Of a DNA stretch of 64,000 bases, positions 6,828 through 16,197 are shown piece by piece; position 1 is the first letter of the stretch; each line of letters begins with the position of its first letter. This stretch comes from Pseudacidovorax sp. RU35E (GTDB lineage Bacteria > Pseudomonadota > Gammaproteobacteria > Burkholderiales > Burkholderiaceae_C). Position numbers and translations under genes: made by a program. The DNA is taken from positions 124,001 through 188,000 of the forward strand of contig NZ_FTMY01000009.1 in NCBI RefSeq assembly GCF_900156165.1, in the 5' to 3' direction. The notes under the pieces are model-generated. The model did not search any database and was not told the DNA's origin. It saw only the letters and a program-made list of their open reading frames with translations.

Positions 6828-7937
6828 ATGGCTCGCATGGCCTCCGCCGCCCTCAGCCTCGACCACCTGCGCCTTTACGCCGTCGCGCGCTCGCTGTTCA
6901 CGCCGACCACGCTGCCGGCCGCCATCCGGCGGCTGGGGTTCGTGCAGGCGGACCCGATCCGCGCGCCCGCCCGCGCACAGGACCTGACGCTGCGCCACCG
7001 CGTCGCCGACTACCGCGCCGGCGACCTGGAAGCGCGCTACCCGCGGCTGCAGATCGACGAGGACTGCCTTGTCAACTACGGCTTCCTGCCACGCGAGCAC
7101 TTGGCGCTGGTGCATCCGCGCGAGCCGAGACGCCCCTGGGACGCCGAGGCCCAGCGCAAGGCGGATGACGTGCTGGCCTTCGTGCGCGAGCGCCGCATCG
7201 CGCATCCGCGCGACGTGGAACTGCACTTCGCTCACGGAAGGCGGCAAAACGCCTGGGGCGGCGGCGGCAACCTGGCCACCCACTTGCTCGACGGCCTCCA
7301 CTACCGCGGCCTGCTGCGCGTGAAGCGCCGCGACAGTGGCACGCGCGTCTATGAGATCGCGGCACACCCGCCCGCCGACGAAAGCCCTGCCGGCCGCGCC
7401 CGTCGGGCTGCGGGCCTCATCGACCTGGTGGTGCGCAAGTACGCGCCGCTGCCGGCGTCCAGCCTGACCTACCTTGTGCGCCTGCTCGGCTATGGCGCGC
7501 CGCACCTGAGCGCGCACACGCAGATCGCGCTGCGCCTCGCGCGTGAGCATCTCGCCAGCGCCACCCTCGACGGCACGACGTGGTACTGGCCAGCCGACGA
7601 GAACCCGCGTTCACGTCGGTGGGTCGTGGACGACCAGTTGCGCCTGCTCGCCCCGTTCGACCCCATCGTCTGGGACCGCCGCCGCTTCACGCTGTTGTGG
7701 GGCTGGACGTATAAGTTCGAGGCCTACACGCCGCCGGCGCAGCGGCAGTTCGGGTATTACGCATTGCCGATGTTGTGGGGCGATCGGGTGGTCGGATGGG
7801 CGAATGTGGCGGGACAGGCGGCGAGCGGCGTGCCGATCGTGGGCTACGCCGATGCAGCCGCGGCCCGGGATCGGACCGCATCGACGCTGCTGGAAGAGGA
7901 AATGACGCGCCTTCACGGATTCCTGGTTCCGCGCTGA
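6828..7937 (+). CDS. ycaQ: YcaQ/AlkX-type DNA glycosylase (winged-helix, interstrand crosslink repair family)
   Basis: A 369-residue protein of the HTH_42/AlkZ superfamily of DNA glycosylases that excise bulky alkylated bases and unhook crosslinks. It has the N-terminal winged-helix region and the catalytic-type motif Q40-A41-D42 (FVQADPIR), matching the Q-x-D motif of the YcaQ branch rather than the Q-x-Q of the AlkZ branch. The C-terminal signature [14 protein letters not shown] and [17 protein letters not shown] closely resembles E. coli YcaQ as I remember it. A second ATG nine bases downstream is an equally good start. It stands 67 nt after ygiQ and is convergent with the LysR gene that follows. 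Confidence 0.85.
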
Positions 7938-7974
7938 GCGCGCTGGCTCACGGACCTGCTGGCGGCGACGGCCT

Positions 7975-8949
7975 TCAGGACCTCGGGGCCTGAATCCGTC
8001 GGTCCGTCGGCGTGTCGCGGAGATGCCGTGCCGCCCCCACCGTCCTCACCACCGCCGACAGCAACGACCGAAACCACACATGCCCCGGCGCCGGCTGCGT
8101 GCGCCCATGCCACAGCTGGTAGAAGCGCATCGGCGGAAAGTCCACCGGCGCGGGCACGATGGCCAGGGGCAGCAGGCCGGCGTAGTACTGCGCAAAGTGC
8201 CGGCTGGTGGTGAAGATCAGGTCGGTGCCGGGCAGCAGGTGCGGCGCCAGGCCGAAGTAGGGCACCGTGACGGTGCCGGTGCGGCTCATGCGCTGTGAGG
8301 CGAGGGCGGTCTCGACCACGCCGCGCTGGGTCACGCTGTAGAGCAGCGGCACCACGTGCGAGCCCTGCAGGTAGTCGGCCAGCGTCATGCGTGCGGCGCA
8401 GGGGTGGCGTTCGTCGACCAGGCAGACGATCTCGTCCTCCAGCAAGAGCGTGGTGCGCAGGTGTTCCGGCGGCTGCGGCCAGTTGCCGATGACCACATCC
8501 AGTTCGCCTTCGGCCAGCGCGGCCTCGAAGTCGTAGTCGGGGCCAAGCGGCTGCAACGCCAGCCTGGCCGCGGGTGCGGTCTCGCGCATGTACTGCGCCA
8601 CGGCGGCCATCAGCGGCGGGGCCAGGTAGTCCGGCGTGCCGATGCGGAACACCTGCCGCGTGGTGGCCGGGTCGAAGCTGGATTCGGGCGCGAGCAGCGC
8701 ATCCAGCTCGCCCAGCACCAGCCGCACCGACGCATGCAGCTGCATCGCCCGCTCGGTGGGCACCATGCGCTGCTTGTCCTTGATGAGCAGCGGGTCGCCG
8801 AATACCTCGCGCAGACGCTTGAGGGCGCTGCTGATCGCGGGCTGCGACTGGTTCATGCGCGCGGCGGTGCGCGAGACGCTGCGCTCCGCCATCAAGGTGT
8901 GGAAGACGCGCAGCAGGTAGGTGTCGAAAGGGTCGTCGGGTCGGGACAT
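7975..8949 (-). CDS. LysR-type regulator, divergent from a Bug receptor gene
   Basis: A 324-residue LysR-type transcriptional regulator. The N-terminal winged HTH (about 10-70) includes RSVSRTAARMNQSQPAISSALKRLRE, and the rest is a periplasmic-binding-protein-like effector domain. The start at 8949 is chosen because the HTH begins shortly after it; the longer frame (to 9084) would add an atypical leader and cover the promoter region. The HTH and C-terminal layout resemble the NodD/PcaQ-like branch that often controls aromatic catabolism. It is transcribed away from the Bug-AMDase genes across 152 nt, the usual arrangement for a LysR regulator and its target. A GCACC-N5-GGTGC dyad (8963-8977) just upstream of its start could be an autoregulatory site. 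Confidence 0.9.
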   Translation of the reverse strand: MSRPDDPFDTYLLRVFHTLMAERSVSRTAARMNQSQPAISSALKRLREVFGDPLLIKDKQRMVPTERAMQLHASVRLVLGELDALLAPESSFDPATTRQVFRIGTPDYLAPPLMAAVAQYMRETAPAARLALQPLGPDYDFEAALAEGELDVVIGNWPQPPEHLRTTLLLEDEIVCLVDERHPCAARMTLADYLQGSHVVPLLYSVTQRGVVETALASQRMSRTGTVTVPYFGLAPHLLPGTDLIFTTSRHFAQYYAGLLPLAIVPAPVDFPPMRFYQLWHGRTQPAPGHVWFRSLLSAVVRTVGAARHLRDTPTDRRIQAPRS

Positions 8950-9101
8950 GCGATGCTGGGTTGCACCGCCTTGGTGCCTCGCCCTCGGAATGACGGGTCG
9001 CTGGCGCCATTCGGCTGATACGGTGCATTCCTTCTTGGCAATTGGCGTGCCGGAGAACGCTTCGAACAATGCGGGCATTCCCATTGCTTGCGGCCTTCAC
9101 C

Positions 9102-10109
9102 ATGTCCGAATTCTTTCTTCCTACACGCGGATCGACCCTGCCGCGCCTGAGCCGACGCGGCGCATTGCGCCTGATGGCCGCGGGGGCGGCGGCCGGCGCC
9201 CTGCCTGCCTTCGCCCAGTGGCCCGAGCGGCCGATCAAGATCGTCGTCACCTTTGCACCCGGTGGCGCCAGCGACATCCTGGCACGCGTGGTGGCCGAAC
9301 AGCTGGGCCGCAAGCTCGGCCAGCCGGTGGTGGTGGACAACCGCCCCGGTGCGGGCGGCACCATCGGCGGCCAGGTGGTGGCCACGGCGGCGCCGGATGG
9401 CTACACGCTGATGCTCTCCAACACCACGCCGATTGCGCTGGGCCCCTTCACGCTGGACAAGCAGCCCTACGACCCGGTCGCCGCCTTCAGCCATGTGGCC
9501 TACCTGGGCTCGGCGCCGCTGGTGGTCATGGCGAGCAAGGAGTCCGGCATCAAGAGCTGGGCCGATCTGGAGGCGCGCGCCAAGAAGGACGGGCGGCTGG
9601 ACTTCGGCTCCGGCGGCCCGGGCTCGGTCGGCCACATCCATGGTGAGCTGATCAAGCGCGTGACGGGCGCCAACATGGTGCATGTGCCCTACCGCGGCGG
9701 CGCGCCCATGACGACCGACCTGCTGGCCAACATCGTGCCCGTGGGCATCGACGTGATCACGGCCTACGTGCAGTACTTCAAGACCGGCCAGCTGGTGCCG
9801 CTGGCCGTCACCGGCACCACCCGCTCGCCGCTGATGCCCGAGGTGCCCACCATGGTCGAACTGGGCCAGCCCAAGCTGGTGCTGGAGAACTTCTTCGGCA
9901 TCTCCGGCCCGGCCAGGTTGCCGGCCGAGACGAGCGCCCGCCTGCACGACGCGACCAACGCGGTGCTGGCCATGCCCGAAGTGCAGAAGAAGATGGTCGA
10001 CCTGGGCATCGTGGCCCAGCCCGAGAGCACCGCGCGCTTCGAAGGCTTCGTGCGCGACCAAGTGGCGGTGCTGGGACCGACGGTGAAGGGCGCGGGCATC
10101 AAGCTCTGA
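9102..10109 (+). CDS. Bug-family (TctC-like) periplasmic substrate-binding receptor
   Basis: A 335-residue tripartite tricarboxylate transporter receptor of the Bug type, which captures carboxylates in the periplasm. The N-terminus carries a twin-arginine-like export signal (LSRRGALRLM, then hydrophobic, cleavage near AFAQ). The mature protein begins with WPERPIKIVVTFAPGGASDILAR, where the two loops holding the ligand carboxylate lie, followed by VVDNRPGAGGTIGG and the conserved VPYRGGAPM. ATG 9102 is preferred over the upstream frame because it starts the signal peptide. No TctA/TctB permease is present nearby. It is immediately upstream of the AMDase homologue, so it may deliver that pathway's substrate, either to a distant permease or as a sensor (inference). 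Confidence 0.93.
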   Translation: MSEFFLPTRGSTLPRLSRRGALRLMAAGAAAGALPAFAQWPERPIKIVVTFAPGGASDILARVVAEQLGRKLGQPVVVDNRPGAGGTIGGQVVATAAPDGYTLMLSNTTPIALGPFTLDKQPYDPVAAFSHVAYLGSAPLVVMASKESGIKSWADLEARAKKDGRLDFGSGGPGSVGHIHGELIKRVTGANMVHVPYRGGAPMTTDLLANIVPVGIDVITAYVQYFKTGQLVPLAVTGTTRSPLMPEVPTMVELGQPKLVLENFFGISGPARLPAETSARLHDATNAVLAMPEVQKKMVDLGIVAQPESTARFEGFVRDQVAVLGPTVKGAGIKL

Positions 10110-10118
10110 GCGTGGGCG

Positions 10119-10139
10119 GGGGCCGCCGCGGGCGGCCCC
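10119..10139 (+). other. Strong stem-loop between the Bug receptor and AMDase genes
   Basis: Perfect 9-bp GC-rich stem (GGGGCCGCC / GGCGGCCCC) with a GCG loop, ten bases after the receptor stop. It is not followed by a T-run, so it is a poor intrinsic terminator; a role in mRNA stability or in making the receptor more abundant than the enzyme is possible. Confidence 0.6.
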
Positions 10140-10169
10140 ACAATCCGCAGCTTTGCCCCAGGAGCTGCG

Positions 10170-10886
10170 ATGACCGATTCCGCCATGCCCGTGCTCGGGC
10201 TGATCGTGCCGCCCGCCGCTGGCGAGGTGCCGCCCGAAGGCCCGGCGCTGTACGACGGCCGCGCACGCTTCCTCGCCCGCGGCCTCGCACTGGCGGGCAT
10301 CCATCCCGAAGGCTTCGACGAGGTGGAAGGGCGTATCGTCGACCTGGCCCGCGAGCTGAAGGCAGCAGGCGCGCAGGCCGTCTCGCTCATGGGCACCTCG
10401 CTCAGCTTCTATCGCGGCGCCGCCTTCACCGAGGATCTCCGTGCCCGGATGGCGGCCGCGACCGGTCTGCCGTGCACGACCATGAGTCATGCCATCGTGC
10501 GCAGCCTGCGCCAACTGGGCATGCGTCGGGTGGCGGTGGCCACGGCCTACATCGACACGCTCAACGACCGGCTCGCCGCCTACCTGGAAGCCGAGGGCTT
10601 CGAGGTCACGGCCATCCGCGGCCTGTCGATGACGGGCGTCGAGGCGGTCGGTCAGGTCGATGCCGGGACGCTCGCCCAGCTCGCCCGCAGCGTCAGCGCT
10701 GAAGGGCAGCCGGACGGCCTGCTCATCTCCTGCGGCGGCCTGCGCACGCTGGACCTGCATCCGCGCCTGGAGCGCGAACTGGGCCTGCCCGTCACCTCCA
10801 GTTCGCCGGCCGGCTTCTGGGACCTGATGCGAACCGCCGGCCTGGATGCCGCATCGCCCGGCCACGGCCGCCTCTTCGATGCCTGA
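10170..10886 (+). CDS. Arylmalonate decarboxylase (AMDase) homologue, Asp/Glu racemase superfamily
   Basis: A 238-residue cytoplasmic enzyme that from memory matches Bordetella bronchiseptica AMDase along its whole length. AMDase removes CO2 cofactor-free from alpha-aryl or alpha-alkenyl malonates to give optically pure acids. Visible hallmarks are IVPPAAG near the N-terminus, the dioxyanion-hole region SLMGTSLSFYRGAAF (G75, T76, S77), ATAYID with Y127, SCGGL with catalytic C188, and SSSPAGFWD near the C-terminus. Position 75 is Gly, so only one active-site Cys is present, as in the decarboxylase and unlike two-Cys racemases and maleate isomerases. A good AGGAG precedes the ATG. The stop overlaps the next LysR gene by 8 nt. 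The natural substrate of this family is unknown; function as an arylmalonate-type decarboxylase is a confident family assignment but the substrate is inference. Confidence 0.88.
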   Translation: MTDSAMPVLGLIVPPAAGEVPPEGPALYDGRARFLARGLALAGIHPEGFDEVEGRIVDLARELKAAGAQAVSLMGTSLSFYRGAAFTEDLRARMAAATGLPCTTMSHAIVRSLRQLGMRRVAVATAYIDTLNDRLAAYLEAEGFEVTAIRGLSMTGVEAVGQVDAGTLAQLARSVSAEGQPDGLLISCGGLRTLDLHPRLERELGLPVTSSSPAGFWDLMRTAGLDAASPGHGRLFDA

Positions 10887-11790
10887 GGGCCTTCAGCTGG
10901 ACCTGGCCACGCTGCGCGTCGTGGTCACGGCGGCCGAGCTGGGCTCGATCAGCGCCGCGAGCGACCGGCTGAACCTGGCCATCGCCGCCGCCAGCGCCCG
11001 CATCAGCGCGCTGGAGGAATCGCTGGGCCTGCGCATCTTCGAGCGCTCATCGCGCGGCGTACGGCTCACGCCGGCGGGTCAGATGCTGGTGCGCCGCGGG
11101 CGCGAGTTGCTGGCCGATGCCGACCGCCTGTCGCTCGACCTTCACGACCATGCCCGCGGCCTGCAGGGTCATGTGCGCCTGGCGGCCAACACCTCGGCGC
11201 TGGTGGAGGTGATGCCCGCCCACCTGCAGCACATGGCCCGCGCCCATCCGCTGATCCGCATCGACGTGGAAGAGCATGGCAGCCTCGACATTCCGCTGCT
11301 GCTGCTCGAAGGCCGCGCCGACCTGGGCATCGTGCACATGGCGCATGCGCCGCACGGCATCGCGCTGACCGACTGCTTCGTCGACACGCTGGTGCTGGTG
11401 GTGCCGCAGGGGCACGCACTGGCCATGCGCGAGGCCGCGGCGCTGGCGGATGCGCTGGATGAGGACTTCATCTCCCTGGGCGACGGCACCGCACTCTCCA
11501 GCCGGCTGGCCGCCGCCGCGTCGGTGGCGGGCCGCCTGCTCAAGATCCGCATGCAGATGCGCAGCTTCGACGTGGTCTGCCGCATGGTGGCCGGCGGCCT
11601 GGGTGTGGCGGTGCTGCCGCGCGAGGCCGTCGCGCCGCAGCTGGCCAGCCTGCCGATCCGGGCCGTGCCGCTGACGGACGCCTGGGCCGTGCGCACGCAC
11701 CGCATCGCCGTGCGCGAGGGCGTGGAGCTGGCGCCGCCCGCGCGCACGCTGTTCGACGTGCTGGCCGGCCGCGCGCCGCGCCCCGCGTAA
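10879..11790 (+). CDS. LysR-type regulator co-transcribed with the AMDase homologue
   Basis: A 303-residue LysR-type regulator. The HTH lies at about residues 8-66 (ELGSISAASDRLNLAIAAASARISALEESLG), followed by RLTPAGQ and an effector-binding domain. The ATG at 10879 lies inside the end of the AMDase gene (8-nt overlap), so the two are translationally coupled. It is on the same strand as the enolase-fold gene that starts 118 nt later. The intervening region holds a T-N11-A dyad at a classical LysR position upstream of a plausible promoter, so this protein probably regulates the downstream genes (inference). Confidence 0.92.
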   Translation: MPEGLQLDLATLRVVVTAAELGSISAASDRLNLAIAAASARISALEESLGLRIFERSSRGVRLTPAGQMLVRRGRELLADADRLSLDLHDHARGLQGHVRLAANTSALVEVMPAHLQHMARAHPLIRIDVEEHGSLDIPLLLLEGRADLGIVHMAHAPHGIALTDCFVDTLVLVVPQGHALAMREAAALADALDEDFISLGDGTALSSRLAAAASVAGRLLKIRMQMRSFDVVCRMVAGGLGVAVLPREAVAPQLASLPIRAVPLTDAWAVRTHRIAVREGVELAPPARTLFDVLAGRAPRPA

Positions 11791-11799
11791 ACCCTCGTC

Positions 11800-11814
11800 T
11801 TCGCGGATCGCGAA
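11800..11814 (+). promoter_or_regulatory. Candidate LysR operator (T-N11-A dyad)
   Basis: Perfect 15-bp inverted repeat TTCGCGGATCGCGAA containing the T-N11-A core of LysR-type recognition sites. Its centre (11807) lies about 65 bases upstream of the start point expected from the promoter at 11836-11865, which is where LysR proteins bind their activating site. The LysR gene ends only 10 nt upstream. Confidence 0.55.
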
Positions 11815-11835
11815 AGCGGCCTTCGCGCCGCGGCG

Positions 11836-11865
11836 TTGTGGCGGGCGGGGGCGGCTTCCTAGACT
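11836..11865 (+). promoter_or_regulatory. Candidate sigma70 promoter of the enolase-fold gene
   Basis: TTGTGG (11836-11841), an 18-bp spacer and TAGACT (11860-11865). The -35 element is weak (3 of 6) and the -10 moderate (4 of 6), as expected for a promoter that needs an activator. It lies 44 bases before the ATG at 11909. Confidence 0.4.
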
Positions 11866-11908
11866 GGCCGCGTTCCCCCGAAGACCCGAAGCCAGGAGAC
11901 ACCGCCCC

Positions 11909-13063
11909 ATGAAGATTGCCCGCGTCCACGCCACGCCGCTGAACCTGCCGGTCAGCGTCGGCCATGGCGGCCGCACCAAGACCACCTCGCTCTCGCTGTG
12001 CCTGGTCGACATCGAGACCGACGATGGCCGCATCGGCACCGGCATGACCGCCATCACCGAGGAAGAGGCCGTGGCCGCCATCGTCAACGAGGTGGCCGCC
12101 CATCACCTGAAGGGGCTGGACCCGCTCAACCACGAGCAGGTGTGGGAGCGGCTCTACTGGCTGCTCACGCCCCGCGGCCAGTCGGGTTATGCCAGCCATG
12201 CCATCGCCGCCATCGACCTCGCCCTGTGGGACCTGAAGGGCCAGGCCTTGGGGCAGCCCTGCTGGAAGCTGCTGGGCGGCGCACGCGCCCAGGTGCCGGT
12301 GTATGCCACCTTCGGCTTCGCCTTCTACGACCGCGACGAGCTGGCCCAGGCCGCGCGCGACTGGGTGGGCCGCGGCTTCTCGCGCCTGAAGATGACGGTG
12401 GGCCACCACGGGCTGGCGCGCCGCGACGAGCCCCGGCCGCTCGACACGCTGATCGCCGAGGACGTGCAGCGCATCCGTGCCGTCCGCGAGGCGGTGGGCC
12501 CCGACGTGCAGATCTACATCGACGCCAACTGCAGCCTGGACTATTTCCATGCGCTGTCGCTGGCCCGCCGGGTGGAGGCCTACGACATCGCCTTCTTCGA
12601 GGAGCCGGTGACGCAGAACGACATTCCCAACCTGGCCAAGCTGCGGGCCAAGACGGCGATCCCGCTGGCGGCCGGCCAGAACGAGGGCCATGCCAGCCGC
12701 TTCCGCGACATGCTGGTGGCGCAGGCGGTGGACGTGGTGCAGCCCAATGCCTGCATCACCGGCGGCTTCACGCAGTGCGCGCGCATCGCCGGCATGGCCG
12801 CGGCCTTCAACACGCGCTTTGCCAACGGCGGCGCCTGGCCGCACCACAACATGCACCTGCATGCGGGCCTGGCCAACGGCTCGCTGGTCGAGTACCACTC
12901 GGTGGCCGTGGAATGCTGCAAGCAGGTGTTCGACGGCCTGCCCGAGCCGCAGGCCGGCGTGCTCGACCTGCCGCAGGCGCCGGGCCTGGGCTTCGCGCCG
13001 AACCGCGAGCGGCTGCGCGAGCTGGCCAAGCGCCCGGGCTCGCGCGGTGCCGGAAAAGCGTGA
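11909..13063 (+). CDS. Mandelate racemase/muconate lactonizing enzyme-family protein (enolase superfamily)
   Basis: A 384-residue enolase-superfamily protein with an N-terminal capping domain (1-125) and a TIM-barrel (126-360). Two metal ligands are clear: D205 (IYIDANCSLD) and E231 (FFEEPVTQND). The third ligand position, normally Glu in a GEN motif, reads AAGQNEG here (Q257, with E259 two residues on). The usual K-x-K of mandelate racemase reads K161-M-T, and the Asp of the His-Asp dyad appears as N280 (QPNACITGG). It may therefore be a dehydratase or other variant and not a racemase. A good AGGAGA precedes the ATG. It is followed after 199 nt by a Bug receptor and then by an FMN-dependent hydroxyacid dehydrogenase. 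Confidence 0.85.
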   Translation: MKIARVHATPLNLPVSVGHGGRTKTTSLSLCLVDIETDDGRIGTGMTAITEEEAVAAIVNEVAAHHLKGLDPLNHEQVWERLYWLLTPRGQSGYASHAIAAIDLALWDLKGQALGQPCWKLLGGARAQVPVYATFGFAFYDRDELAQAARDWVGRGFSRLKMTVGHHGLARRDEPRPLDTLIAEDVQRIRAVREAVGPDVQIYIDANCSLDYFHALSLARRVEAYDIAFFEEPVTQNDIPNLAKLRAKTAIPLAAGQNEGHASRFRDMLVAQAVDVVQPNACITGGFTQCARIAGMAAAFNTRFANGGAWPHHNMHLHAGLANGSLVEYHSVAVECCKQVFDGLPEPQAGVLDLPQAPGLGFAPNRERLRELAKRPGSRGAGKA

Positions 13064-13140
13064 CATGAAGTGCCCTCGCATCGCCAGTTCCCCGAGCGTT
13101 CGTTCCCCGTCCCCATACCGGTTCCAGACATGCGGGTGAA

Positions 13141-13200
13141 CCGCGGCGCATCAACCCGTTCGCCCTGAAACCGCGGCGCCCCAAGCCGTTCGCCCTGAGC
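13141..13200 (+). repeat. Two tandem 30-bp direct repeats
   Basis: Units 13141-13170 and 13171-13200 start CCGCGGCGC and end in CCGTTCGCCCTGA; 25 of 30 positions agree. The second unit runs into the palindromic repeat at 13185-13220. They fill most of the 199-nt gap between the enolase-fold gene and the Bug receptor. Confidence 0.7.
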
Positions 13201-13220
13201 CTGTCGAAGGGCAGAACGGC
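13185..13220. repeat. REP-like palindromic repeat (GTTCGCCCTGAGCCTGTCGA type)
   Basis: Inverted arms GCCGTTCGCCCT (13185-13196) and AGGGCAGAACGGC (13208-13220) pair over 12 bp with a single bulged A. This short dispersed repeat is common in Comamonadaceae and related genomes; related copies lie at 30271-30300 and 31500-31520. Confidence 0.7.
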
Positions 13221-13262
13221 GCGCAGCCCAAGTCCGCGCCCGAACAAGAAAAGGAGACAACC

Positions 13263-14246
13263 ATGACGACCCATCCATTGACTCGCCGCCACGCCTTCGC
13301 CCTGGCCGCCGCGATGCTGGCCGCCGCGCCGGCCGTGCAGGCGCAGTCCGGAACGTATCCCGAGCGCCCGATCCGCCTGCTGGTCGGCTATTCGGCCGGC
13401 GGCGGCGTGGACGCCATGGCCCGGCTGCTCACGCCGCGCCTGTCCACGCTGCTGGGCCAGCAGGTCGTGGTCGAGAACCGGGCGGGCGCCGCCGGCCTGA
13501 TCGCCGGTGACCTGGCGGCCAAGGCGCCCGCCGACGGCTACACGCTGCTGCTGGGCGACAGCTCCACGCTGATCGCGCAATACATGCAGCCGAAGATGTC
13601 CTTCGACCCCATCAAGAGCTTCGTGCCGGTGGCAGGTCTGTTCACGCTGCCGCTGGTCGTCGTGGCGGGCAACGACTTCCCGGCGAAGACGCCGCAGGAG
13701 CTGGTGGCCGCCCTCAAGGCGAGGCCCGGCCACTATTCCTTCGCCACCTCGGGCGTGGGCACGGTGCAGCACCTGGGCTTCGAGCTGTTCAAGGGCAAGA
13801 CCGGCACCTTCGTCACGCACATCCCGTATCGCGGCGCGGCCCAGATCGTGCCGGACGTGATCAGCGGGCAGGTGCCGCTGGGCGTCGTCAGCGCCACCTC
13901 GGCCCTGGCGCAGGCCAAGGGCGGACGGCTCAAGGCGCTGGCGGTGATGAGCCCGGTCAAGCTGGCGGGTGCCGAGGACGTGGCGCCGCTGGCGGCGGCG
14001 GTGCCGGGCTTCGATGCCGCGCCGCGCGTGTTCCTGCTGGCACCGGCCGGTACGCCCGATGCGGTGGTAGAGCGGCTGGGCAGCGCCGTGCGCACGGTGA
14101 TGGCTGCGCCCGACCTGGCCCAGGTCGTCGCGCAGCAGGGCGCCGTGCCGGCCTTCGAGCCGCCGGCCGAACTGGGCCGCAGCCTCGTGCAGGAGTCGCA
14201 GCGCTGGGGCCAGCTGATCCGCGAGCAGAACATCGTCGCCCAATGA
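13263..14246 (+). CDS. Bug-family (TctC-like) periplasmic substrate-binding receptor
   Basis: A 327-residue extracytoplasmic carboxylate receptor. It has a signal peptide (about 1-27, ending AVQAQS), then YPERPIRLLVGYSAGGGVDAMARLL and VVENRAGAAGLIAGD, the two ligand-loop regions of Bug proteins, and HIPYRGAAQ later. A strong AAAAGGAGA stands seven bases before the ATG. It lies between the enolase-fold gene and the FMN-dependent dehydrogenase, all on one strand, and is the second receptor of this island. No permease genes accompany it. Confidence 0.93.
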   Translation: MTTHPLTRRHAFALAAAMLAAAPAVQAQSGTYPERPIRLLVGYSAGGGVDAMARLLTPRLSTLLGQQVVVENRAGAAGLIAGDLAAKAPADGYTLLLGDSSTLIAQYMQPKMSFDPIKSFVPVAGLFTLPLVVVAGNDFPAKTPQELVAALKARPGHYSFATSGVGTVQHLGFELFKGKTGTFVTHIPYRGAAQIVPDVISGQVPLGVVSATSALAQAKGGRLKALAVMSPVKLAGAEDVAPLAAAVPGFDAAPRVFLLAPAGTPDAVVERLGSAVRTVMAAPDLAQVVAQQGAVPAFEPPAELGRSLVQESQRWGQLIREQNIVAQ

Positions 14247-14292
14247 GCCCCCTTGCACCGTCGCCGAGCGGGTTGGCGCGCAGGGCGTGCGC

Positions 14293-15474
14293 ATGAGTGC
14301 GCCGGCCGCACTGGCGCGCATGACCTGCGTGGAAGATCTGCGCCAGGTGGCCCGGGCGCGGGTGCCGCGCATGTTCTACGAGTACGTCGATTCGGGCTCC
14401 TGGCGCGAATCGACCTACCGCGCCAACGAGCGCGACTTCCAGCAACTACTGCTGCGCCAGCGCGTGGCGCGGGACATCTCGCAGCGCACCGTCGCCACCA
14501 CGATGCTCGGCCATCACGTGGCCATGCCGGTGGCGCTGGCGCCGACGGGCCTCACGGGCATGCAGCATGCCGATGGCGAGATCCTGGCCGCGCGCGCCGC
14601 ACGCGACTTCGGCGTGCCCTTCACGCTCTCGACCATGAGCATCTGCTCGCTGGAGGACGTGGCCGCGCACACCGGGCGGCATCCCTTCTGGTTCCAGCTC
14701 TACGTGATGCGCGACCGTACGTTCATCGAGTCGCTGATCGAGCGGGCGAGGGCGGCCAACTGCAGCGCGCTCCAACTCACGCTCGACTTGCCGGTGATGG
14801 GGCAGCGCCATGCCGACATCCGCAACGGCCTGTCGGTGCCGCCGCGGCCCACGCTGCGCAACCTGCTGGACCTGGCCCTGCGCACGCGCTGGTGCCTGGG
14901 CATGCTGGGCACGCGGCGGCGCAGCTTCGGCAACATCGTGGGCCATGTGAAGGGCGTGGACGACATGGCCTCGCTGGCCGCCTGGACCAACGCCCAGTTC
15001 GATCCCACGCTGTCGTGGGCGGACGTGGAATGGATCAAGCGCCGCTGGGGCGGGCCGCTGGTGCTCAAGGGCATCCTCGACGCGGAGGATGCTCGCCGGG
15101 CCGTGGACTGCGGCGCGGATGCGATCGTGGTCTCCAACCATGGTGGCCGGCAGCTGGACGGGGCGCCCTCCGCCATCCGCGCGCTGCCGGCCATTGCCGA
15201 TGCCGTGGGGCTGGAGATCGAGGTCTGGCTCGACAGCGGCGTGCGCAGCGGCCAGGACGTGCTCAAGGCCCGGGCGCTGGGCGCCCGCGGCACCATGATC
15301 GGTCGCGCCTTCCTCTATGGGCTGGGGGCCTTCGGCGAGGCGGGCGTCATGCGGGTGCTGCAGATCATCCGGCGCGAGCTGGACCTGACCATGGCCTTCT
15401 GCGGCCGCACGCACATCGACGATGTGGATGCGTCGATCCTGCTCGGACCGCAGCGTGGCGGCCCTTGGGACTGA
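14293..15474 (+). CDS. FMN-dependent alpha-hydroxyacid dehydrogenase/oxidase (lactate/mandelate dehydrogenase family)
   Basis: A 393-residue FMN-dependent 2-hydroxyacid dehydrogenase that oxidises an S-2-hydroxy acid to the 2-keto acid. Conserved elements are the FMN-binding ALAPTGLTGM, FQLYV, K259 (VLKGIL), catalytic H283 with R286 in SNHGGRQLDG, and the phosphate-binding DSGVRSGQD and IGRAFLYGLG. The family includes L-lactate, glycolate and (S)-mandelate enzymes; the sequence alone does not settle which. A GTG six bases upstream is an alternative start. It follows the Bug receptor by 46 nt and closes the island; with AMDase and the mandelate racemase-like protein upstream, an aromatic 2-hydroxy acid is a reasonable candidate substrate (inference). 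Confidence 0.9.
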   Translation: MSAPAALARMTCVEDLRQVARARVPRMFYEYVDSGSWRESTYRANERDFQQLLLRQRVARDISQRTVATTMLGHHVAMPVALAPTGLTGMQHADGEILAARAARDFGVPFTLSTMSICSLEDVAAHTGRHPFWFQLYVMRDRTFIESLIERARAANCSALQLTLDLPVMGQRHADIRNGLSVPPRPTLRNLLDLALRTRWCLGMLGTRRRSFGNIVGHVKGVDDMASLAAWTNAQFDPTLSWADVEWIKRRWGGPLVLKGILDAEDARRAVDCGADAIVVSNHGGRQLDGAPSAIRALPAIADAVGLEIEVWLDSGVRSGQDVLKARALGARGTMIGRAFLYGLGAFGEAGVMRVLQIIRRELDLTMAFCGRTHIDDVDASILLGPQRGGPWD

Positions 15475-15504
15475 GGGCCGGCACGCCGGCGAGCAGGGGC
15501 CGGG

Positions 15505-16197
15505 TCAGAGCCCCAGCGTGTCGAACTGCGCGTAGACCTGCGCCAGCCAGCCCTTGACGCGCTGGCGCTCCAGCAGGCCCAACGCCTCGGGGCCGGTCTT
15601 GTCGTTGACGGCCTTCCAGAAGCTCGTGTTGTTGGCGTCGATCTTGCGCATCGTCGCTTCCTGCAGGCGGGGCAGGGTGATGAACTGGGCGCCGTGCTCG
15701 CGGGCCTTGATCTGCGCGGGCGAGCCTTCCAGCGTCGAGAAGTCGCTGCCGCGGCCCTGGTTCTGCACCACCACGTACCGGGCACGGGTGCCGTAGGTAT
15801 CGACCAGGCGACCCAGCATGTCGGTGGAGTCGCGGCCATCGTCCATCACGTGCCAGAACACGACCGGGATCTCCAGCTCGTCGAACACCTCGAAGAGCTG
15901 CGATTCGGCGATCCAGCGCGCCAGCGGCGCCTGCGTCTGCGCGGCCAGGTCGACGATCACGCTGCGCTCGGGGTGCTCCTCGAAGCCGTTGACCACCGTG
16001 TCGAGTCCCTCGAAGCTGTCCACCGCCACAGGCGAGGCGAAGCCCTCGTAGAAGCGGGTGAAGGAGTTGTGCGAACGGTCGGTGTCGAAGCCGATGAAGG
16101 GGCGGCTGCGGTCGATGAAGTACTGGGCCAGCAGGCGCGAGGTGACGGACTTGCCGACGCCGCCTTTTTCGCCACCGATGAAGTTCAGGGTGCTCAT
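15505..16197 (-). CDS. ParA/MinD-like P-loop ATPase, orphan
   Basis: A 230-residue protein starting almost directly with a ParA-type deviant Walker A (GGEKGGVGKS, residues about 8-17). The rest follows the SIMIBI fold, with FDTD and VIVDLAAQ as likely switch and Walker B regions. It has no DNA-binding N-terminal domain and no ParB or parS neighbour, so it is not a standard partition protein. It lies alone, convergent with the dehydrogenase gene and upstream of a lipoprotein gene on the same strand. Function unknown. Confidence 0.8.
   Translation of the reverse strand: MSTLNFIGGEKGGVGKSVTSRLLAQYFIDRSRPFIGFDTDRSHNSFTRFYEGFASPVAVDSFEGLDTVVNGFEEHPERSVIVDLAAQTQAPLARWIAESQLFEVFDELEIPVVFWHVMDDGRDSTDMLGRLVDTYGTRARYVVVQNQGRGSDFSTLEGSPAQIKAREHGAQFITLPRLQEATMRKIDANNTSFWKAVNDKTGPEALGLLERQRVKGWLAQVYAQFDTLGL

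Follow-up and report, generated by a model that had tools for sequence, protein, structure and literature searches.

The genes at positions 10139-15504 of a DNA stretch from Pseudacidovorax sp. RU35E form a real, bounded five-gene catabolic unit that includes an arylmalonate decarboxylase (AMDase) gene; this delimitation is well supported, and genome comparison suggests that the unit feeds a 2-hydroxy-acid oxidation pathway. The stretch, referred to as the window, is 64,000 nt long (GCF_900156165.1, NZ_FTMY01000009.1, positions 124,001-188,000 forward; genome size, 5.69 Mb), and positions are given in window coordinates. The five genes, all on the + strand, encode the AMDase (10170-10886, 238 aa; Amdase, PF17645, 2.6e-100), a LysR-type regulator of the cassette (LysR2, 10846-11790; LysR substrate domain, 2.6e-36) whose start overlaps the AMDase end, an enolase-superfamily protein of the mandelate racemase/muconate lactonizing enzyme type (MR/MLE, hereafter MR; 11909-13063; MR_MLE_C, 4.9e-53), a periplasmic receptor of the tripartite tricarboxylate transporter (TTT) Bug/TctC type (Bug2, 13263-14246; TctC, PF03401, 7.7e-58) and an FMN-dependent 2-hydroxyacid dehydrogenase of the LldD/MdlB type (FMN-dh, 14287-15474; FMN_dh, 3.4e-138). 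The sequence-only reading had placed these five genes and a preceding Bug receptor (Bug1) in one island, and all six were present in those places on the + strand in the open reading frame list. The family labels of the AMDase, LysR2, both Bug receptors and the FMN-dh were borne out by a Pfam scan covering nine window genes (6828-16197), and those of the AMDase and FMN-dh also by NCBIfam.

The limits of the unit were drawn from a genome of the same genus (G406), in which AlkZ, LysR and Bug1 genes were followed directly by a ParA-like gene. The G406 contig aligned with the window at 7013-10138 (89.5% identity) and 15505-16165 (95.0% identity), with 39 unaligned bases between the two segments. 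The absence of exactly 10139-15504 from G406 (L201), together with the presence of the divergent LysR and Bug1, showed that the unit comprises five genes, AMD-LysR-MR-Bug2-FMN; an island including Bug1 was ruled out, as G406 keeps Bug1 without the cassette. No strong AMDase, and no MR at E 1e-90, was found in G406. The empty site comes from a single relative and a single draft contig (3,826 bases), and it is compatible with loss there as well as with gain elsewhere. The ParA-like gene was present in each of nine further genomes of the genus that lack the cassette; AlkZ, LysR, Bug1 and the cassette genes were unmatched there at 45% identity or more in the fetched stretch, and because the flanking genes were unmatched, these nine genomes do not show the same site.

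A total of 74 distinct loci were compared after removal of seven duplicates, and 71 of them, nearly all from Burkholderiales, carried an AMDase classed as strong (identity of 54% or more). Excluded from the 71 were L174-L176 (31-40% identity), 13 weak actinobacterial loci (L022-L034), weak PF17645 matches, and small G104 and G1238 contigs that matched AMDase only in part. Neighbours were counted by tblastn within 7.5 kb of the AMDase, at identities of at least 35% for LysR and at least 40% for FMN-dh. MR was found near the AMDase in 66/71 loci, Bug2 in 67/71 and a LysR match in 65/71. Bug1 and the divergent LysR were each found in 5/71, and the Bug1 loci all belonged to the window's own genus. 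The sequence-only reading was to fall if these neighbours were rarely kept by AMDases elsewhere, and this was not the case: MR and Bug2 were widely kept, ruling out a chance neighbourhood. FMN-dh was kept in only 18/71 loci. The claim of a catabolic island around the AMDase thus held for the unit, but not for its boundaries, since Bug1 lies outside. Two gene orders were observed. Order A (AMD-LysR-MR-Bug2-FMN; 16 loci) had FMN-dh in 16/16; order B (LysR-MR-Bug2-AMD; 50 loci) had it in two (L088, L090). LysR identity in Variovorax order B was only 35-40%, so that orthology of the regulator is unsure there.

Judged from its sequence, the window protein is a true AMDase by family, and decarboxylation of arylmalonates with R selectivity is predicted. 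It scored above curated cut-offs over its full length (PF17645, 335.2 bits vs 25.9; NF052327, 320.5 vs 225), and residues 3-237 of 238 aligned with solved AMDases (3dtv etc.) at E 2e-75. Cys188, Tyr127 and Thr76 were conserved in 74/74 aligned loci, three weak and distant ones included, and Ser77 and Gly75 in 72/74, confirming the catalytic Cys188 and the further residues noted earlier. All 12 AMDase sequence criteria set out in the text of PMC4996985 were matched by identical or similar residues, with the numbering shift read by eye from the alignment with solved AMDases: P14 P15, L41, G75, T76 S77, Y127, V157, C188, G189, LMGTSLSF and LLISCGGL were present, and I44, F49 and V160 stood in place of V43, Y48 and M159. 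The possibility that the protein is an Asp/Glu-superfamily racemase or isomerase instead of a decarboxylase is very remote. Maleate isomerases belong to this superfamily and also matched in the PDB, but the protein passed the NF052327 cut-off and not that of EutA (82.9 vs 318 bits), had Gly where racemases carry their second Cys, and kept LMGTSLSF and LISCGGL, in accordance with the published AMDase criteria. The AMDase of Pseudacidovorax sp. NFM-22 shared 97% identity with the window's. The genome to which the window belongs also contained, elsewhere, a distant AMDase-superfamily homologue (L002, G000:C17:30934-31545; 32% identity) without the LMGTSLSF motif.

AMDase and MR were associated across genomes. 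When 101 genomes of the genus of G285, taken to be Variovorax, were searched with the window AMDase, 54 had a match at E 1e-30 or better; both genes were found in 53, AMDase alone in 1 (G1194), MR alone in 3 (G1205, G1206, G1239) and neither in 44 (Fisher p 8e-24, n=101, kinship uncorrected). The contigs of G1205 and G1239 (L187, L189) ended before the expected AMDase place. On the G1206 contig (L188), the end of a penicillin-binding-protein gene was followed after ~50 bases by LysR-MR-Bug2-FMN, so that the AMDase was missing there from an otherwise complete unit. G400, of the window's own genus, had an MR 64% identical to that of the window and no strong AMDase. The association was also found in an alphaproteobacterium (Ponticoccus). 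The AMD and MR trees showed similar main groups, with order-B rows outside Variovorax and rows without MR more mixed in the AMD tree; both were quick searches with long branches, compared for similarity without a formal congruence test.

In wider draws, strong matches to the AMDase (E 6.4e-64 or better) were found in 13/399 genomes drawn from the family, and 5/15 genomes of the own genus had a strong AMDase. At E 1e-30 or better, matches were found in 4/300 genomes of the order draw (the three besides the own genome being only 31-40% identical), 1/369 of the class draw and 2/398 of the phylum draw, own genome included in the last two. With the Ponticoccus AMDase as query, 1/200 genomes of the phylum draw matched, and this was its own. 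In each genome these searches scored only a subset of the first-look candidates, and a failure to match does not prove absence. Plasmid-borne AMDases were considered as wide support and set aside, as only Ponticoccus and Aminobacter exceeded 40% identity among the matches listed (20 of 300; 30 of 371). On the Aminobacter plasmid (L177, NZ_AP017987.1), the AMDase gene (NF052327, 303.6 bits) was flanked by the permease gene and the ATPase gene of an ATP-binding cassette (ABC) transporter.

The FMN-dh matched PF01070 (460.9 bits) and NF008398 (437.1 vs 376 bits), carried the SNHGGRQ motif, and fell below the cut-off of the LldD model NF033901 (384.6 vs 550 bits). FMN-dhs of three other MR loci (L088, L090, L186) were 57-62% identical to one another and 39-41% to that of the window, while the MRs beside them were respectively 83, 82 and 64% identical to the window's. 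FMN-dhs of different lineages therefore look to have been recruited to MR loci separately and more than once. In five Variovorax loci (L006, L009, L129, L134, L135), two FMN-dh copies stood beside the AMDase unit.

The fullest neighbourhood found in this comparison was on a plasmid of Ponticoccus alexandrii (L178, NZ_CP047170.1 108198-124680), where FMN-dh and MR genes were divergent from TctC-TctB-TctA, AMDase, aldehyde dehydrogenase (ALDH) and thiamine diphosphate (ThDP) enzyme genes; by its predicted products, it is a mandelate-like set. Identities to the window proteins were 33-34% for FMN-dh, 50% for MR, and 25-29% for the receptor against Bug2 and Bug1. The plasmid AMDase scored 271.9 bits with NF052327 (cut-off 225), and the ThDP enzyme 643.6 vs 456 bits with NF006203/PRK08327, its best PDB match being benzoylformate decarboxylase (2.5e-25). 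G400 (L186 6673-19341) had MR, Bug (37% to Bug2), FMN-dh, a TPP-binding protein and a POR/DUF6537 protein, the last two presumably making up an indolepyruvate-type ferredoxin oxidoreductase; a branched-chain-type ABC transporter and a second MR-like gene were also present. Since varied FMN-dhs and ThDP enzymes of 2-oxo-acid type adjoin MR, the oxidation of a 2-hydroxy acid to a 2-keto acid, proposed in the sequence-only reading, gained support. The mandelate pathway, mdlABCD, comprises mandelate racemase, FMN-dependent (S)-mandelate dehydrogenase, benzoylformate decarboxylase and benzaldehyde dehydrogenase. The window shares with it an MR-family protein and an FMN 2-hydroxyacid dehydrogenase, and Ponticoccus adds the ThDP enzyme and ALDH; however, the window has an AMDase and TTT uptake in addition, and its MR is without the canonical racemase residues. 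No ThDP 2-oxo acid decarboxylase or ALDH was found among the nine window genes scanned (6828-16197).

We tentatively read the cassette as a 2-hydroxy-acid pathway similar to that for mandelate, in which AMDase provides an optional entry step, and rate the chance of this as somewhat below even. For this scheme we infer the substrate, the order of steps, the stereochemistry, the MR chemistry, and the places of the TctAB and 2-oxo-acid enzyme genes. Bug2 would capture a substituted malonate in the periplasm and pass it to TctAB encoded elsewhere, and LysR2 would respond to the malonate. AMDase would remove one carboxylate of an alpha-hydroxy-alpha-(aryl or alkenyl) malonate and, by R-face protonation, yield an (R)-2-hydroxy acid; by our own reasoning, a hydroxyl in place of the methyl of a 2-arylpropionate leaves the R label unchanged. 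FMN 2-hydroxyacid enzymes are (S)-specific in known relatives. The MR-like enzyme would act on the (R)-acid, epimerising it or carrying out a related alpha-proton reaction, to give the form that FMN-dh accepts; FMN-dh would oxidise the (S)-acid to a 2-oxo acid. This acid would then pass to a further enzyme encoded elsewhere, with the benzoylformate-decarboxylase-like ThDP enzyme of Ponticoccus and the ferredoxin-oxidoreductase type of G400 as counterparts. AMDases are R-selective (PMC4996985). The enolase-fold enzyme is placed between AMDase and FMN-dh.

The MR-like protein had N-terminal and barrel domains (PF02746, 2.5e-16; PF13378, the MR_MLE_C match given above), its fold being assigned by Pfam only. 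A KxK motif, a His-Asp dyad and three acidic metal ligands define the MR subgroup and have canonical roles. Across 66 orthologue rows, the window's among them (67-100% identity over the best segment), the KxK place read K161-M-T163 in 64 rows and gaps in the other 2; in 13/14 rows of a broader alignment its second position was T, I or V, with Lys only in L183. The dyad was absent: QPN was found in 66/66 rows and Gly307-Gly308 was invariant in 10 aligned rows, these places aligning with the D and H present in L183 and 5olc, both canonical-looking members. In this subgroup K161-x-T163, Q257, N280 and NGG stand in place of the canonical residues. Among the metal ligands, D205 and FEEP were kept, the third position was Gln257, and E259 followed two places on; 3no1 has a similar GQxE. 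K161, D205, FEEP, Q257, N280, G307-G308 and H316 were common to the orthologue rows and to distant members (39-54%) from Ponticoccus, Burkholderia arboris, Neorhizobium, Paracoccus and the haloarchaeon Halostagnicola. The label of mandelate racemase family thus stood as far as the enolase superfamily is concerned, but the canonical racemase acid/base residues were missing. Because the residues of a normal two-base racemase are missing, racemisation is not the default expectation, and the ordinary MR enolate chemistry earlier proposed for this step cannot be assumed.

A second possibility is that MR acts first, dehydrating or rearranging a hydroxylated di- or tricarboxylate taken up by the cell to an alkenyl or aryl malonate for AMDase, with FMN-dh working on a later hydroxy acid; we consider this unlikely, although a credible minority view. 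The nearest NCBIfam models of MR were sugar-acid dehydratases, and PDB matches included galactonate dehydratase and cycloisomerases (5olc, 4ggb and 5xd7 among the matches; 4ggb we take to be a lactone cycloisomerase). The window MR shared with these enzymes the fold family, the overall alignment, and the DxN and FEEP metal-ligand motifs; it differed from 5olc in KMT for KMK, QPN for QPD, and a PH histidine position that was not kept. In Halostagnicola, Neorhizobium, Paracoccus and G400, genes of TTT receptors or permeases had a member of the MR subgroup nearby and the stretch fetched gave no AMDase match, indicating that MR may act directly on an imported compound. However, no canonical dehydratase base pair was recognisable, as the second Lys and the His-Asp dyad were missing, and the sets of G400 and the G1206 contig showed that FMN-dh can follow MR without AMDase. 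On a haloarchaeal plasmid (L180 3793-8095), the gene after TctC-TctB-TctA encoded an MR protein that shares these unusual residues. In Burkholderia arboris (L179 7735-10146), the gene of a subgroup member (54%) came directly after a BenE-type benzoate transporter gene, a hint that points to an aromatic carboxylate.

Several observations weigh against a 2-hydroxy-acid pathway entered through AMDase. The MR has neither the His-Asp dyad nor a second Lys in KxK. FMN-dh was missing from 53/71 AMDase loci, and the ThDP step was found in only two relatives (Ponticoccus, G400), with different enzymes. Five loci (L015, L019, L020, L021, L086) were without MR; L015 retained Bug2, and L019 and L021 were cut by contig ends, the gene just upstream of AMDase there being neither Bug2 nor MR. 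No MR match was found within 10 kb of the Aminobacter AMDase in its ABC-transporter operon. We know of no natural alpha-hydroxy-aryl malonate. The heteroaromatic alpha-hydroxycarboxylic acids reported as AMDase products come from engineered variants (PMC4996985), not from the wild-type enzyme. Phenylmalonate was the compound used to isolate two AMDase strains, Bordetella bronchiseptica KU1201 and Variovorax sp. HH01 (PMC4424294; PMC4996985), and it would yield an arylacetate, not a 2-hydroxy acid. Together with the five AMDase loci without MR, these isolations favour a third explanation, in which AMDase turns simple arylmalonates into arylacetates for the phenylacetate pathway, and MR and FMN-dh are merely co-regulated and serve other acids taken up via the same Bug. 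The close association of AMDase with MR and the block-wise absence in G406 speak against it, and we regard it as doubtful.

Upstream of the unit and outside it, Bug1 (9042/9102-10109, +; TctC, PF03401, 9.4e-56) is a TTT receptor; the two Bug receptors scored 189.8 and 196.6 bits with PF03401, against a cut-off of 27. Beside it lay a divergent LysR gene (7975-9084, -; open reading frame and Pfam), likewise outside the cassette, a correction to the sequence-only reading. Downstream, 15505-16197 encoded a ParA-like protein with weak similarity to TraL (NF010461, 51.5 bits vs cut-off 360), and a homologue was found in 10/10 same-genus genomes searched. Base composition gave no information on a possible foreign origin (GC 0.688-0.735 in windows within 9-15.5 kb vs 0.675-0.750 around them). 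Genes downstream of Variovorax order-B units (MmgE/PrpD, acyl-CoA dehydrogenases, CoA transferase, citrate-lyase-like) were set aside as a neighbouring operon because they are mostly on the other strand.

The neighbours of AMDase had been put forward in the sequence-only reading as a first physiological context for the enzyme, but the AMDase-MR-Bug neighbourhood was already published (PMC4996985, 2016). That paper lists 63 AMDases, with an MR/MLE gene in 61% of available neighbourhoods and with genes of TTT, tripartite ATP-independent periplasmic (TRAP) or ABC transporters near AMDases, and notes that receptor genes in Betaproteobacteria can be orphans. The link between AMDase and transporters is taken up again in a TTT review (PMC5812351). 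The clusters in the text of PMC4996985 resemble the present unit in combining AMDase, an MR/MLE gene and orphan Bug/TctC receptors and in their accessory distribution. They differ from it in that an empty-site boundary, FMN-dh/ThDP/ALDH partners and residues of the MR subgroup are described here; the word "dehydrogenase" occurs 0 times in the main text of PMC4996985, as distinct from its figures and supplements. A 2-hydroxy-acid route for AMDase was proposed in no title or abstract opening among the matches listed, which cover little of the subscription literature. The unit is a more sharply bounded variant of the published gene-cluster type, with a pathway that is plausible and testable. What is new is the count of neighbours over 71 loci (MR in 66, Bug2 in 67, FMN-dh in only 18), the FMN-dhs of different lineages at MR loci, the fuller Ponticoccus set, and an MR subgroup without canonical residues.

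AMDase is in common use as a biocatalyst, and two papers give its physiological substrate as unknown: the natural substrate is described as still to be identified (PMC4996985), and the true substrate and pathway as still to be uncovered (PMC4424294). The five-gene boundary, the recurrent FMN-dh, the AMDase-free versions (G400, G1206) and the Ponticoccus set narrow this question to a few compounds and knock-outs, and the chemistry of the MR subgroup cannot be guessed from textbook residues. It is conceivable, though improbable, that the AMDase-linked MR stands for a subgroup of the enolase superfamily that has gone unrecognised and has a novel arrangement of its catalytic residues, and that, with AMDase and FMN-dh, it forms an undescribed pathway for substituted tartronate-type malonates. 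If true, this pathway would be the role in nature that has long been sought for AMDase.

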